Positions 6,139 to 38,760 of a DNA stretch of 41,106 nucleotides are shown here, piece after piece (the first letter of the stretch is position 1; each line of letters begins with the position of its first letter). Where the stretch lies: assembly GCA_022749935.1 (NCBI GenBank), contig JAKIWQ010000002.1:66480-107585 (forward strand), given 5' to 3'. The notes beneath the pieces were generated by a model. It ran no database searches, was not told the DNA's origin, and worked only from the letters and a program-made list of their open reading frames with translations. The position numbers and the translations under genes are program-made. This DNA comes from Thermoplasmata archaeon. GTDB lineage: Archaea; Thermoplasmatota; Thermoplasmata; Lutacidiplasmatales; UBA184.

Positions 6139-8487
6139 TCACAGAGCGCCACACCGAGGACATCGGACCGGCTCGGCCGGCCGGATCGAGCCGCAGAACG
6201 GGCAGAGGTACGTCGCGGGACTCGGGTCGAGCGTCTCCGGCGCCGGAGGCGGAAGCCCGTAGGCGCTCGGGGGAACCGGTGGAGCGACCCCGTAGGTCGT
6301 TCCGAGGGGGCCGTAATCCGGCGCTACCGGCGGAGGTCCCCGTCGACGGGAGGGCCCCACGAAGACGAGGACGAGGAGCACGGCCAACACGACTCCGAGG
6401 CCCAGGATCACGGCGATGGCCACGGCGGGGATGGGCGCGTTAGACGTGGCCGGGAGACCGGGGGTGGGCCCGGCGTAGTGGTAGGCCCGCACCGCCACGT
6501 TCTCGTCGGCTTGAAGGAAGCGCGGCGCCGATAGTCCTCCCCAACCCGTCGCCGCATCCCAGCCGGCCACGGCGCTGAACACGTAGTTGCTGCCAGAGGT
6601 GATGTCCAAGAACGGCGAATCCTGTCCGGGATTCGCGGCGAAGTAGGACGCCATCGAGTAGAGTTCCGGATCAACGAATCCGAACCCGAGGGGCAGCCCC
6701 GAGCGATTCTCAACTGCGATGACATCGGCCAAGAGACCGGCGAACACCGGCGCCGCGACGCTCGTGCCCTCCAAGATCGTGAAGTAGATGTTCTCGGACG
6801 CGTCCGCGTACACGTAGGCGATCGTGGAGTTGGCCGGAAACGCAAGGTCCGGCCCGGCTCTCCCCAGCGACGACACTCCCTGGGTCCCCGCGGCCTCGGC
6901 AATCGGGGGTTGCGCGGCCGAGTGGACCTCCCAGTACGGTTCCGGGTACACCGAGCTGAGCCCGCCCTCGGTACCGGCGCAGGCATGAGGGCACCCACCG
7001 GAGTCCCACCAGGCCGACATGCCACTGAACCCGGTGGAGTTCGAATCGAACGACAAGTTGAGGGACGTCCCATTCCACACGGTGGTGGGGACTCCACTGA
7101 GAGTAACGGAGGCTCCCCCGACCGAAACGGAGCCGCTCGTGTTGAACCCCACGGAGGCGGGCCACACGGGCCAAGGGCCGTCGCCTCTCCCCGTCAGGGT
7201 ATCCGGCGCGTTTCCCTGATCCCCGCTCGCCATCACGACCGTGACTCCGGTGGAGGCGGCGATGGTGAGGTCCGAGTTCCATGCCGAGTCGTTGAGGTCG
7301 GGGAGGCCAAACGACCCGCTCACCACTCCGAGACGGGCCGGTGAGTAGTTTTCCGCCAATGCGGCGCTCAGGTCGGCCGCAAACGCGTCCGCCAAGTTCA
7401 TCGCCGGCGTGCTTCCGGCCAGGACGCTGCCGGCGAAGTAGAAATTGTAGAGCGCGACCCCGGGAGCGAGGCTACCGGCCATTTCGAGGTCGAGGGAGTT
7501 CTCGTACTCGTCCAGACTGGAGTCGTTCAGCGTTCCGAACGAGGCGGGGGGCGGAGCGGGGATCCCGTCGACCGCGACCGGGACACCGACGGCCACGGGT
7601 TGCGGCCACGTGGACGGAAACGTGTCGTTGAAGTACTGTCGAACGACCGCGGGGTCCCACCCCGGAAGGTTCTGATTCGTGGACTCGTTGTACCCGCTCG
7701 CCAAGAGCGTGGCCACCGCGACGTGCGAAGGAAACGTGTCGTTGCTCCCGAACAAGCCGCCGGGGAACAGGGACGAGGCCCCGTACGCCTGGGTGAAGTC
7801 CGAGCCGACAAACCACTCGCCGCTCGTGTTGGAAAGCACGAACGACGAACTCCGACCTGAGGCTCGCGTCCCGACCGGCCCGTGGTGGGCCCCGATCAAA
7901 AGGTACGGGTTGCCCTCGTCGCTGAGGCCGCCAATCCCGACCACATGGCCCAGGAGGGACGGGGGGAGGGAGACCGTTCCGACCGCGGTGTAGAGAGGAA
8001 CTCCGCGATCCATCCCGGTGGTGCAGAGCCGGACCCCGAGGAGGCTCTCCACCGCTCCCGCTGAGAGAACAGCCGAGACGGTGTTGCGAGCGCCGGAGAC
8101 AGAGAGGTCCGTTCCGCCCGCCGACCGGAGGGTCTCAGCGACCGAGGCCACCTGGGCGGGCGACGGGCTGAACCGCGCCACAAACTCCGGTTCGGTGAGG
8201 AAGTGGCGGTACTGGGTCGAGGTCGGGTCCTCCACCGCGCCGAGCCAGCGGGCCAATCCCCCTGAATTCGAGTAGGGTAGGGTGAACGTAAGGGACAGCA
8301 GGGTGGCGGGCGGGAGGGGCCGAACGGGGGCCTGGGCCGGAAGGCGGATTTCGTCGGTGACGAGGCGCGGTGGCGCAGCCGCTCCCGGAGGTACCGGGGC
8401 CTCCGCACCCAGCGCCACGGGCGTCATGCTCACCACGAGCACGAGCGCCAGGAACCCGACGAATCCACCCGCGACGAGCCGCATCAC
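6139..8487 (-). CDS. S53 (sedolisin/kumamolisin-type) serine-carboxyl peptidase with C-terminal TM and zinc ribbon
   Basis: Signal peptide, activation-domain-like prosegment (YRHFLTEPEFVARFSPSPAQVASV), Glu/Asp motif ENSLDLEMAGSLAPGV, catalytic Ser in EGTSVAAPVFAGLLADV, C-terminal TM (AIAVILGLGVVLAVLLVLVFV) and YLCPFCGSIRPAEPVRCPRCGAL. Confidence 0.88.
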   Translation of the reverse strand: MMRLVAGGFVGFLALVLVVSMTPVALGAEAPVPPGAAAPPRLVTDEIRLPAQAPVRPLPPATLLSLTFTLPYSNSGGLARWLGAVEDPTSTQYRHFLTEPEFVARFSPSPAQVASVAETLRSAGGTDLSVSGARNTVSAVLSAGAVESLLGVRLCTTGMDRGVPLYTAVGTVSLPPSLLGHVVGIGGLSDEGNPYLLIGAHHGPVGTRASGRSSSFVLSNTSGEWFVGSDFTQAYGASSLFPGGLFGSNDTFPSHVAVATLLASGYNESTNQNLPGWDPAVVRQYFNDTFPSTWPQPVAVGVPVAVDGIPAPPPASFGTLNDSSLDEYENSLDLEMAGSLAPGVALYNFYFAGSVLAGSTPAMNLADAFAADLSAALAENYSPARLGVVSGSFGLPDLNDSAWNSDLTIAASTGVTVVMASGDQGNAPDTLTGRGDGPWPVWPASVGFNTSGSVSVGGASVTLSGVPTTVWNGTSLNLSFDSNSTGFSGMSAWWDSGGCPHACAGTEGGLSSVYPEPYWEVHSAAQPPIAEAAGTQGVSSLGRAGPDLAFPANSTIAYVYADASENIYFTILEGTSVAAPVFAGLLADVIAVENRSGLPLGFGFVDPELYSMASYFAANPGQDSPFLDITSGSNYVFSAVAGWDAATGWGGLSAPRFLQADENVAVRAYHYAGPTPGLPATSNAPIPAVAIAVILGLGVVLAVLLVLVFVGPSRRRGPPPVAPDYGPLGTTYGVAPPVPPSAYGLPPPAPETLDPSPATYLCPFCGSIRPAEPVRCPRCGAL

Positions 8488-15739: not shown

Positions 15740-15848
15740 GGGGCTGTGGGGTAGCTACGGACGCGAGGCAACCACCTCCGTCCGCTCTACTGGTCCATCC
15801 TTCGGGCTTTGGGAGCCCGGGACCCCGATTCAAATTCGGGCAGCCCCA
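15740..15848 (+). tRNA. tRNA-Pro (anticodon TGG) interrupted by a 34-nt D-loop intron at 15757-15790
   Basis: Acceptor GGGGCTG (15740-15746)/CAGCCCC (15841-15847)+A; anticodon arm CGGGC-TTTGGGA-GCCCG; T-arm CCCGA-TTCAAAT-TCGGG. Removing 15757-15790 restores GTAGCT/TGGTCCATCC, the usual archaeal tRNA-Pro D-arm layout. Confidence 0.9.
15757..15790 (+). other. Predicted noncanonical tRNA intron (position 17/17a)
   Basis: ACGGACGCGAGGCAACCACCTCCGTCCGCTCTAC; hairpin CGGACG(C)GAGG-CAACCA-CCTCCGTCCG; 5' bulge CU|A and 3' bulge AC|U place cleavage sites at the boundaries inferred from the tRNA fold. Confidence 0.82.
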
Positions 15849-35324: not shown

Positions 35325-37196
35325 TCAGGGTGGGGGGCGGGCGTGGAACCGGGCGAGGGCACGGTGGAGCGCTTCCGCGACGTCCTTCCCGTCTCGGCGA
35401 CCCCGGACCTCGCGCATCATGTCGCCCATGAGCGGGGAGAACGCGGCCGCTCCGCGGTCGCGCACCATGCCCGCGTTCGCAGCGACCACGCGGTCGGCGA
35501 TCGAATCGAGATCCTCCAGCACCGGCCCGGCGAGGCCGGCCCGCTCGACCGCCGCATCCAGGGTCGGGGCGCCCGCCATCCACGCCGCGAGCACTCCGGG
35601 GATCCCCTCTTTGGAGAATTGACCCGACTCCGCGCCCCGGAGCAGCGCGTCCAACTGATCGAGAGAGAGTTCGACGTCCGACCCGCGGGGAGCGGCCGCG
35701 ACCGCCGCCGCGAGTTCCTGCGTGAGGAGCCGCGACACCGGGCCCGGCGATCGGCCCCGTCGGACCAGTTCCTCCAGAGTGCTCGCATCGCCGGCGGCCA
35801 CAAGCTGACGGACGAGATCGGGTGGAAGTTGGAACGTGGAGGCGAGTCGGTGGCGGAGGGTGGCCGGTCGTTCGGGTAGATGCGAGGACAGGTCCCGTAA
35901 ACGCTCCTCCGGCACGGCGACCGGAGGCACGTCGGTCTCCGGATACATGCGGTCCTTCCCGGCGAGCGGGCGCGAGTATCGGGTCCGTCCGTCCGGCAGC
36001 GGGTCCCGCGTCTCTCCGGGAATCCCCTCGAGGGCCGACCGGGCGCGCTCGGCCACACGTACCAGCGCGGCTTCGGCCCGTTCTCGCGTTGGGGCGACCA
36101 CGAGAACGAACGCGTCGGGCTCGTCCAGGCCGAGCGCCTCCCGAAGTCGGACCACCTCCGTCGTTCCGAGTCCGTGTCCGGGCAGTTCGTCCGAGTGAAG
36201 GAGGCCCCCGAGCCCCACCGCTCGAGCTTGGTCGGCGAGCTCCCGACCGAGCCGCTCCTCCGAAGCGTCGGACCCCCGAAGCATCCCGGCGAAGCCTCGA
36301 AGCGAAAGGGCCAGGATGACGCCCCGTTTCCCTGGGGCGCCCGCCAACGGCCCGGAAACCACGTCCGCGAGAAATTCGCCCACGTCCCGGATCTCGGCCG
36401 TCCGGGCGGTTACGCCCCGGCGGAGCAGCCGGTCGCGCAGGCGCAGAAGGGCCTCCTGGCGGGCGACCTCCCGGTCGGTGTACTCCCCGATCATGCGCAG
36501 CTCCTGGACTCCCTTGATCTCGATACGACGGCCCCCCTCGGTCGAGACATTCAGGTCCTCCCGAATCGTCCCGATCCCGCGGCGGACCCGTCCGGTGGAC
36601 CGGAGGAGGGCCCCGATCTCCTCGGCGACCTCGCGGGCCTCGAGGCCGCTGTGGATATCCGGGCCGGTGGCGATCTCGACCAACGGGATCCCGAGGCGGT
36701 CCAGCCGGTACGTGATCCCGTCCTTCGAGTCGGAGACCTTGCGCGCGGCGTCTTCCTCGAGGCAGATCGTATCGATGGCGTGACGACGCCCGCCGACATC
36801 GAGATGTCCGTCGGTTGCGATGAGCGCCGTGCGCTGAAATCCGGTGGTGTTCGACCCGTCGACGACGATCTTCCGCATGACCTCGACTTCGTCCACGGGC
36901 CGTGCCTCCAGCAAGAGCGCGAGCTGGAGGGCGGTGTCGAGCGCTTCCGGATTCAGGGCGTGCGGCGGTTCCTCGTCCATCTCGACGAGGCAGTTGGACG
37001 GACCCGATTCGTATCGGTACAGGAGTTCTCGCGACGCCTGAAGGGCCGCCGCGGGGTCGATGGCCCGGTTCTCGCCGCCCGACGCGCGCAGCCGCCGGGA
37101 GAAGGTCTGTCCGACCTCTTCGGAGAGTTCGGCCGGGCAGTCGCAGAAGAGCTTACTCATCGCGAGCTGCTGGTGGACCTCGAGGCCGACCTTCAC
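35325..37196 (-). CDS. gatE: Archaeal Glu-tRNA(Gln) amidotransferase subunit E
   Basis: VKVGLEVHQQLAMSKLFCDCPAELSEE, DGSNTTGFQRTALIATDG, PLVEIATGPDI, GTIREDLNVS, RYSRPLAGKDRMYPETDVPP. GTG start at 37196. Confidence 0.95.
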   Translation of the reverse strand: MKVGLEVHQQLAMSKLFCDCPAELSEEVGQTFSRRLRASGGENRAIDPAAALQASRELLYRYESGPSNCLVEMDEEPPHALNPEALDTALQLALLLEARPVDEVEVMRKIVVDGSNTTGFQRTALIATDGHLDVGGRRHAIDTICLEEDAARKVSDSKDGITYRLDRLGIPLVEIATGPDIHSGLEAREVAEEIGALLRSTGRVRRGIGTIREDLNVSTEGGRRIEIKGVQELRMIGEYTDREVARQEALLRLRDRLLRRGVTARTAEIRDVGEFLADVVSGPLAGAPGKRGVILALSLRGFAGMLRGSDASEERLGRELADQARAVGLGGLLHSDELPGHGLGTTEVVRLREALGLDEPDAFVLVVAPTRERAEAALVRVAERARSALEGIPGETRDPLPDGRTRYSRPLAGKDRMYPETDVPPVAVPEERLRDLSSHLPERPATLRHRLASTFQLPPDLVRQLVAAGDASTLEELVRRGRSPGPVSRLLTQELAAAVAAAPRGSDVELSLDQLDALLRGAESGQFSKEGIPGVLAAWMAGAPTLDAAVERAGLAGPVLEDLDSIADRVVAANAGMVRDRGAAAFSPLMGDMMREVRGRRDGKDVAEALHRALARFHARPPP

Positions 37197-38509
37197 GGGG
37201 ACGCTTCCCCGGTGTGTCGGTCGAGAAACTCCTCGGCCCGTGGCGCCCGGAGGAGTTCGGTGACCCCGTCGGGCGTGACAGCGTGCCCGAGCGCCCACAC
37301 CATCTTCGCGTACGCGGTCTCGGGAAGGAGGTCGTCCAGGAAGACGACTCCGGCGTGGAGGAGCTCGCGCCCGGTGGCGTACACGTACGGGTCGGCGCGA
37401 CCCCCGAGGCATTGCGTCGTCATCGCGACCACGACGCCGCGACCGATTGCCTCTCGGATCCAGGGTAGGTGCGTCGAGCTGACGTGCCCGAGGCCCGTCC
37501 CCGCCAGGACGACGCCTCGGAGGTCCTGGACGAACCCCGCCGCGCGCTCGGGCTGGAGGCCCGGATAGAACCAGAGCAATCCGGCGTGCGTGTCGAGCGG
37601 TCCGTCGCAGCGAGCCGGGCCGACGGCCGGAGGGCGCACACTGGATCCGAGCGTAAAGACTTCCCCCTCCAACCAGCCGATCGGCGGACCATTCCGGCTC
37701 TCGAACGCGTCGCGTCGGCTCGAGTGCATCTTGCGGACCCAGTTTCCCCGGTGGACGGCGAACCGAGTGTCGGACAGACCGGCATGCATGAGCACGACCA
37801 CTTCGCCGATCCCGCCGTTCCGTGCGACCTGGACGGCCGCATCGAGATTCGAGGGTCCGTCCGAGGAGGGCCGGTCCGGCGATCGCTGGGCCCCCACGAG
37901 GACGACGGGTCCGGGGAGGTTGACGAGGAGAAAGCTGAGCGCGGCCGCGGTGAACCCGAGGGTATCCGTCCCGTGCGCGATCACGACGCCGACGGCCCCA
38001 GCGTGAAACGATTCCACCACCTTCTCTCCGAGCTCCGCCCAATCCTCGGGACGGAACTCTTCGCTCAGCCGGTCGAACACCGGCACGATGCGGACCGGCC
38101 CGCGGTGCTGCAGCTCCGGGTAGAAGGCAAGGATTTCCGCCTCGCCCTTGACGGGGCGGACCCCTCCGGTTTCGTAGTCGACCCGGGAGGCGATCGTTCC
38201 GCCCGTCGTTAGCAGGGCGACCCAAGCTCCGGAAGGCGCCGTGGGAAGGGGAACGGTTCCATCGACGTTCGACAACCGGGTCGGCGCGGCTTCTTCGACG
38301 ATCCGGAAGGCAAAATCGCGACCGATCTTCAACCCGACGTTGTATCCGCTCGCGAGCTTCAGCTGGAGAACGCGGGCCCCGGAGAAGTCGTGGTGCGGGA
38401 CGATGGTCCCGCGCCACGTGGAGCCTCCCGCGTCGGAAATTTCCACGCGCCGGCCCATCGGGAGCACGGCGAGTTCGGGCCACGGGTCCCGTCGATCCGG
38501 ATCGAGCAT
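37193..38509 (-). CDS. gatD: Archaeal Glu-tRNA(Gln) amidotransferase subunit D (asparaginase-like)
   Basis: VALLTTGGTIASRVDYETGGVRP, VIAHGTDTLGFTAAALSFLL, VLVGAQRSPDRPSSDGPSNL, GTGLGHVSSTHLPWI; 4-nt overlap with gatE. Confidence 0.95.
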   Translation of the reverse strand: MLDPDRRDPWPELAVLPMGRRVEISDAGGSTWRGTIVPHHDFSGARVLQLKLASGYNVGLKIGRDFAFRIVEEAAPTRLSNVDGTVPLPTAPSGAWVALLTTGGTIASRVDYETGGVRPVKGEAEILAFYPELQHRGPVRIVPVFDRLSEEFRPEDWAELGEKVVESFHAGAVGVVIAHGTDTLGFTAAALSFLLVNLPGPVVLVGAQRSPDRPSSDGPSNLDAAVQVARNGGIGEVVVLMHAGLSDTRFAVHRGNWVRKMHSSRRDAFESRNGPPIGWLEGEVFTLGSSVRPPAVGPARCDGPLDTHAGLLWFYPGLQPERAAGFVQDLRGVVLAGTGLGHVSSTHLPWIREAIGRGVVVAMTTQCLGGRADPYVYATGRELLHAGVVFLDDLLPETAYAKMVWALGHAVTPDGVTELLRAPRAEEFLDRHTGEASP

Positions 38510-38651: not shown

Positions 38652-38760
38652 GCCCGTGTGGGGTAGCTACGGACGCGGGGCACACACCCCGGCCCGCTGC
38701 AATGGATTATCCTAGAGGCCTGCGGAGCCTCAGACCTGGGTTCGAATCCCAGCACGGGCG
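38652..38760 (+). tRNA. tRNA-Arg (anticodon GCG) interrupted by a 34-nt D-loop intron at 38669-38702
   Basis: Acceptor GCCCGTG (38652-38658)/CACGGGC (38753-38759)+G; anticodon arm GAGGC-CTGCGGA-GCCTC; T-arm CTGGG-TTCGAAT-CCCAG. Removing 38669-38702 gives GTAGCT/TGGATTATCC with A20, C35 and G73. Confidence 0.9.
38669..38702 (+). other. Predicted noncanonical tRNA intron (position 17/17a), related to the tRNA-Pro intron
   Basis: ACGGACGCGGGGCACACACCCCGGCCCGCTGCAA; 25/34 identical to the tRNA-Pro intron. Exon G12-U13-A14-G15 pairs with intron CUGC; bulges CU|A and AA|U. Confidence 0.82.

Follow-up and report, generated by a model that had tools for sequence, protein, structure and literature searches.

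Two tRNA genes interrupted in the D-loop

The window analysed here, a stretch of 41,106 nt, belongs to a 1.79-Mb MAG from a soil-type archaeon (G000; 97 contigs, 95% complete) and contains a tRNA-Arg(GCG) and a tRNA-Pro(UGG) gene, each interrupted at position 17/17a (Table 1). When the tRNA-Arg insert is left out, direct reading gives a regular cloverleaf with anticodon GCG, in which the 38652-38668 exon pairs 7/7 with 38753-38759 to form the acceptor stem. Both ARAGORN and Rfam instead call a 69-nt tRNA at 38692-38760, which would correspond to an intronless tRNA-Arg beginning at 38692. This reading can practically be dismissed: despite the agreement of the two programs, the call scores only 32.7 bits, its acceptor and D arm are irregular, and the 5' strand it uses falls within the insert, which is variable among relatives, whereas 38652-38668 is invariant and forms all seven acceptor pairs. 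The tRNA-Pro gene was missed by both ARAGORN and Rfam. Its predicted spliced layout is that of a 75-nt intronless orthologue (L096), and the precise empty site AGCT/TGG is found in intronless tRNA-Pro of the sister family (L096), of genus g24 and of other orders. An Rfam search of this 95%-complete genome found no other gene with an Arg-GCG or Pro-UGG anticodon, so both genes are probably needed by the host.

Table 1 Features of the window and T-loop intron loci of the host genome. A slash within a motif marks the predicted cut site.
Feature	Position	Strand	Remarks
tRNA-Arg(GCG) gene, 109 nt, one D-loop intron	38652..38760	+	hardly any exon variation across 30 genomes of the genus
tRNA-Arg 5' exon, positions 1-17, GCCCGTGTGGGGTAGCT	38652..38668	+	mean pairwise identity in genus 99.6%
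tRNA-Arg exon strand of central BHB helix, GTAG (12-15)	38663..38666	+	pairs with CTGC
tRNA-Arg predicted 5' splice bulge, C16 U17/A(+1)	38667..38669	+	from BHB pattern
tRNA-Arg intron, 34 nt, ACGGACGCGGGGCACACACCCCGGCCCGCTGCAA, at 17/17a	38669..38702	+	sequence and length vary in relatives, flanks constant
tRNA-Arg intron inner hairpin	38670..38696	+	fold; covariation across relatives
tRNA-Arg intron strand of central helix, CTGC	38697..38700	+	column counts
tRNA-Arg 3' splice bulge, A A/U17a	38701..38703	+	predicted cut site
tRNA-Arg 3' exon, anticodon GCG	38703..38760	+	anticodon and T arm recovered by ARAGORN/Rfam
tRNA-Pro(UGG) gene, 109 nt, sister D-loop intron	15740..15848	+	found in 32 genomes of the genus
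tRNA-Pro intron, 34 nt, at 17/17a	15757..15790	+	empty site in relatives
gatE	35325..37211	-	adjoins tRNA-Arg
gatE open frame, 1052 aa	35325..38483	-	GatE match limited to residues 428-1045
T-loop introns of the host genome	loci L029, L030, L120, L126, L127, L221-L225, L389		

The likeness that the first-pass annotation had described between the two inserts was borne out on direct reading. Both are 34 nt long and lie at the same position, and they are identical at 25/34 positions (9/34 differ). Pro has an A-U pair at 10/21 where Arg has G-C, and in the predicted folds the hairpin bulge shifts from C8 to G7. The 25/34 value represents the upper end of the range, as the 0.74 of the window genome ties for the highest among 27 genomes (mean 0.62).

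Many genomes of the family preserve the neighbourhood of tRNA-Arg and the adjoining gatE. The long N-terminal part of the gatE open frame, upstream of the GatE match, is probably non-coding or another feature. A gatE homologue in a g28 genome (L331, G078:C67:11502-13379) is broken by one TAG, which may reflect an error, a pseudogene or recoding.

Conservation and covariation of the inserts

Records with a matching tRNA-Pro are mostly named Thermoplasmata archaeon and include Candidatus Lutacidiplasma silvani and UBA184, which places the host within or close to the Lutacidiplasmatales (PMC9287336). Insert-bearing loci were found in 32 (Pro) and 30 (Arg) genomes of the genus. Mean pairwise identity within the genus is 97-99.6% for the 5' exons and 92-99% for the 3' exons, the Arg 3'-exon value being lowered partly by the ragged alignment of one species whose D-loop is one base shorter. 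The inserts themselves share a mean of 72% (Pro) and 68% (Arg) identity, with lengths of 31-36 nt overall and 31-35 nt for Arg.

The predicted inner helix, comprising pairs +2/-7 to +7/-12, was scored in 53 Pro and 29 Arg sequences, all distinct (82 in total). These pairs are formed in 90% (Pro) and 89% (Arg) of cases, compared with 72-73% when the sequences were shuffled and 36-51% when one strand was slid by one or two bases. Covariation of the inner helix was 0.48 vs 0.16 for Pro, 0.55 vs 0.24 for Arg and 0.52 vs 0.19 overall. An alignment of 20 sequences had 95.7% of cells paired, against 77.8% when shuffled (reached in 0/500 shuffles), and 9/10 of its inner-helix pairs have changes on both sides. 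As the alignments hold related sequences, the shuffle counts are not probabilities, and it is the slid controls that answer the question of kinship. Folding gave z = -1.9 for the Arg pre-tRNA and z = -0.95 for the Arg intron alone. Covariation between just two sequences, on which the proposal of a selected RNA structure had originally been based, is unconvincing, while the 82-sequence set is convincing; with a covarying hairpin in the relatives' introns between near invariant exons, the proposal stands. The inserts are a structured, conserved intron family.

A relaxed BHB motif and a homodimer-type endonuclease

The 3' end of the Arg intron is kept as CTRYAN/T in 29/30 genomes, giving a 4-bp central helix with exon GTAG, flanked by the predicted 3-nt bulges CU/A and AN/U. 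Within this helix, G12 U13 A14 G15 pairs with C(-6) U(-5) R(-4) Y(-3) in 29/30 introns: position -4, which pairs with U13, is only ever G or A, and position -3, which pairs with G12, is C or T in 29/30. Position -2 is an invariant A, position -1 can be any base, and +1 is A or T in 30/30. Most Pro introns of the genus end in GCTCTAY. In the Arg-type register this leaves a U13xC mismatch and 3/4 pairs, as expected from the first-pass view that the central helix is better in Arg; however, in a register shifted by two bases GTAG pairs 4/4 with CTAY, the GTAG:CTAC helix of the window's Pro gene being perfect two bases downstream. The supposed superiority of the Arg helix thus depends on the register chosen, and either register may set the cut geometry in Pro. 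The 5' bulge fits in both Arg and Pro. On the 3' side the sequence opens into a loop, as there is no outer helix; that element of the strict hBHBh' motif cannot form in Arg, where G10 G11 find no pairing partner in G18 G19, the bases after the 3' bulge. Judged from sequence, the D-loop introns are of the relaxed BHB type (HBh', also BHL-like).

The host genome encodes a single EndA (L226:718-1782), a protein of 354 aa in which two N-terminal domains are combined with two of catalytic type. Its best full-length matches are 5x89 and the A. fulgidus alpha'2 enzyme 1r0v, and candidate catalytic Tyr, His and Lys residues occupy conserved places. The spacing YGSRVGDRLELSL is that of a loop-free enzyme and differs from that of the CSL chimera 3p1y (12 genomes of the genus plus outgroups). 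One EndA gene with two PF01974 domains was found in the 26 genomes searched in the class. No features of a broad-specificity EndA, be it an (alpha-beta)2 beta subunit, an epsilon2 three-unit protomer or a CSL/ASL loop, were found. By these sequence features the enzyme is assigned to the alpha'2 type without the broad-specificity loop.

We propose that the pre-tRNA brings exon bases 12-15 (GTAG) together with CTRY close to the 3' end of the intron to form the central helix, that the intron folds into a hairpin next to this helix, and that the 3-nt bulges hold the predicted cut sites. The single homodimer-type (alpha'2) EndA would make both cuts, after which an RNA ligase would seal the exons into AGCU-UGG. 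RtcB is the archaeal RNA ligase for this joining step. According to one review only (alpha-beta)2 and epsilon2 enzymes efficiently remove relaxed motifs (PMC6379350), and under that rule the combination of a relaxed motif with an alpha'2 EndA lacking the CSL loop argues against splicing. Another paper nevertheless reports that homodimeric EndA can cut BHL-like motifs (PMC8707768), a class that would include the D-loop introns. Alternatively, the inserts could be retained, both tRNAs keeping an enlarged D-loop hairpin that is stable by itself (-16.8 and -13.8 kcal/mol). We consider retention very improbable, as the exon-intron pairing is conserved while the base at the cut is free, relatives have exact empty sites, and the genome encodes EndA and holds many other BHB introns. 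Both inserts are very probably BHB introns removed by splicing, with that of tRNA-Arg being the older.

Further non-canonical introns

The tRNA inventory of the host genome combines Rfam and model searches and is possibly incomplete, and counts are minimum values. Fifteen genes contain at least 16 non-canonical introns, of which 12 lie in T-loops; some 37/38 introns are present as well. Ten T-loop introns, located at 59/60, were read in detail (Glu-CTC, Asn, Arg-TCT, Arg-TCG, Gln-CTG, Ser-GCT, Ser-CGA, Ala-GGC, Gly-TCC and Asp); Leu-TAG and His carry further ones. All ten can form a full BHB: the T stem supplies the outer helix, and U54-R57 pair with positions -6 to -3. The central helix has four pairs in 4/10, three in 5/10 and two in Ser-CGA.

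Other D-loop introns were also observed. An initiator-type tRNA-Met (L021, G000:C1:16273-16375), called Trp by ARAGORN, has one near 20/21 with a CAGG:CCTG helix and AAA bulges. The tRNA-Leu(UAG) gene (L127, ~437-590; G000:C26 near 7786-7930) apparently has two introns, in the D-loop and the T-loop, and the former has a strict-looking BHB with a GGCC:GGCT helix.

A T-loop model (R2) detected 9-12 T-loop introns per genome in g1, g27, g28 and g29, 4-7 in g24, g25 and g26, and 0-3 outside the family, these counts being approximate since R2 was built on an imperfect alignment. Two of the matches outside the family, in G041 of another order of the same class, were read and look real, suggesting that T-loop introns extend beyond the order. 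In that genome, tRNA-Arg(CCG) and tRNA-Arg(TCT) (L376, L390) each seem to have an anticodon-loop and a T-loop intron.

Distribution and age of the two D-loop introns

With a covariance model (R1) built from the tRNA-Arg and tRNA-Pro genes we searched 106 genomes of the order and, in a second run, the 28 genomes outside the genus, after which matches were read individually. Among the matches listed and read above ~90 bits in the order, all were Pro or Arg, and no further members of the intron family appeared. The Arg intron occurs in every sampled genus of the family (g1, g24-g29) and in sister family f3. In the f3 genome G038 it is a different 21-nt sequence, GUAG UUA UAACA GAAA UGUUA CUAC AAU, which has the position, the +1 A and CTACAA in common with the introns of family f1 (identity 0.37). 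In family f2 (L115, L116; G037, G039), tRNA-Arg(GCG) has an anticodon-loop intron and no D-loop intron.

The Pro intron is present in g1, g26, g28, g29 and one g27 genome; it is absent from three g24 genomes, G038 and intronless named records of other groups and orders. The order-wide model search did not find a Pro-UGG gene in several g24, g25 and g27 genomes. In the early-branching g26 and g27, the Pro intron ends in GCTACA[AT]/T, the Arg form. In a gatE protein tree, g24 and g25 branch apart from the clade carrying the Pro intron, and f2 and f3 fall outside the family; support near the base of the family is weak to moderate (80-87%), and the sister family sits on a long branch. Given the genomes in which no Pro-UGG gene appeared, and the tRNA-Arg copies of G073 (7% contamination) and G061 that are identical to those of other genera, statements on single genomes in this part of the family are weak.

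Given that the Arg intron is found in all sampled genera of the family and in f3, while the Pro intron is missing from g24 and the outgroups, we infer that the Arg intron is the older. It would have arisen in or before the common ancestor of the family and its sister family; the Pro intron would have been gained later, within the family, with the two diverging independently afterwards. The relatives' loci and R1 matches agree with the idea, raised in the first-pass annotation, of a lineage-specific intron family: it is shared across genomes of the genus and family, is absent from outgroups, and its gain could be dated by phylogeny, as had been suggested, from the distribution and the gatE tree.

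Origin of the tRNA-Pro intron

We compared the two D-loop introns using unrelated introns within the same genome as the null for likeness. Core identity is 0.636 for Pro-Arg, 0.541 for Pro vs T-loop introns and 0.552 for T-loop introns among themselves; the two D-loop introns score 0.54 and 0.53 against the T-loop introns of the host genome. The two agree in position and structure, as well as in the 3' motif and in most of their opening four bases. The common origin suggested for the pair is plausible, as their likeness exceeds the T-loop null, but unproven, since the 3' motif is partly dictated by the exon.

An alternative is that both are real introns gained independently at the same favourable site, their likeness stemming from the exon, the BHB rules and high G+C. 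This differs from our preferred explanation solely in the origin of the Pro intron. Exon GTAG dictates CTAC and thereby forces the 3' motif, which the T-loop introns of the genome share for the same reason, and the Arg introns of the sister family and f1 are alike in little beyond position, +1 A and CTACAA (0.37). The core likeness, which is only moderate (0.64 vs 0.54), likewise counts against a copy, as does the fact that the exon common to both genes imposes one strand of the central helix. On the other hand, independent gains would have to account for a Pro-Arg core identity above both Pro-T and T-T, and for the start (A/T)CGG in most introns of both kinds, when CGG is found there in 1/10 T-loop introns. 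Furthermore, the shared GGGGTAGCT context, to which the first-pass annotation had pointed, is insufficient: Pro-CGG, Pro-GGG and His of the same genome carry GGGGTAGCTTGG, and these three tRNAs with identical context remain without a D-loop intron. We regard independent gain as possible but rather doubtful, and favour, with some reservation, the Pro intron being one old copy of the Arg intron, with both the copying and its direction deduced from the comparisons above. Such a copy may have been made by DNA transposition, conversion or reverse splicing.

Ongoing gene conversion, in contrast, is hardly credible as the process keeping the Arg and Pro loci alike, even though only 23 kb separates them and several genomes show them linked. 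Within-genome identity (0.621) equals that between genomes (0.623; permutation p = 0.57, 27 genomes), and the Pro and Arg 3' motifs are distinct genus-wide. As likeness within genomes does not exceed that between genomes, the loci have evolved apart, and recent conversion, too, finds no support as a form of the gene conversion that had been among the initial suggestions.

Comparison with known systems

The prior rule links narrow alpha4/alpha'2 enzymes to 37/38 introns and broad (alpha-beta)2/epsilon2 enzymes to introns elsewhere. Reviews associate non-canonical introns with (alpha-beta)2 and epsilon2 enzymes (PMC4090602, PMC6379350), and Euryarchaeota with enzymes of the alpha'2 type were described in a 2014 review as carrying canonical-position introns only. 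The clade studied here has an alpha'2 enzyme and carries many introns elsewhere, a known kind of intron in an unexpected clade. Its T-loop (59/60) introns conform to the rule structurally, since the T stem provides their outer helix; the D-loop introns do not, so that a single enzyme and a handful of transcripts could put the rule to the test. A literature search, with most subscription journals outside its coverage, returned nothing on point regarding tRNA introns in Thermoplasmata.

In its widest form, our interpretation is that a Thermoplasmatota family independently filled its tRNAs with non-canonical introns (about ten T-loop introns plus D-loop introns each) using only a loop-less homodimeric alpha'2 EndA, that relaxed splicing would not need an (alpha-beta)2 or epsilon2 enzyme, and that one D-loop intron moved once, from Arg to Pro; for this combination we see the chances as evenly balanced. 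With ~100 genomes of relatives and a gain that is polarised, the Arg/Pro pair lends itself well to studying the spread of tRNA introns, and it illustrates that standard tools misplace or miss such intron-bearing genes.

The closest parallel is found in the Thermoproteales, which, according to the summary of Fujishima 2010 given in PMC4090602, also have short BHB introns outside 37/38, with alike introns across tRNAs of one genome read as large-scale transposition. The present case concerns a different phylum and endonuclease type, and D-loop introns of this kind in only two tRNAs, whose moderate likeness is consistent with one old event. Viewed by the standards of Thermoproteales-type transposition, the later Pro gain is backed by empty sites, and similarity is above the null but moderate. 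Caldiarchaeum subterraneum has D-, V- and T-arm introns (PMC3293823), and there too the gain of a D-arm intron was recognised by comparing occupied with empty loci; in that case the gain was linked to an integrating element, and the site is 24/25, as opposed to 17/17a here. In Euryarchaeota, 37/38 introns are cut by alpha4/alpha'2 EndA, and the host genome likewise combines an alpha'2-type EndA with some 37/38 introns, but adds T-loop introns and introns at 17/17a that have no outer helix. The Asgard Atabeyarchaeia and Freyarchaeia resemble it in having many non-canonical introns per genome, although they belong to another phylum and have a far higher share of intron-bearing tRNAs (PMC11291895).
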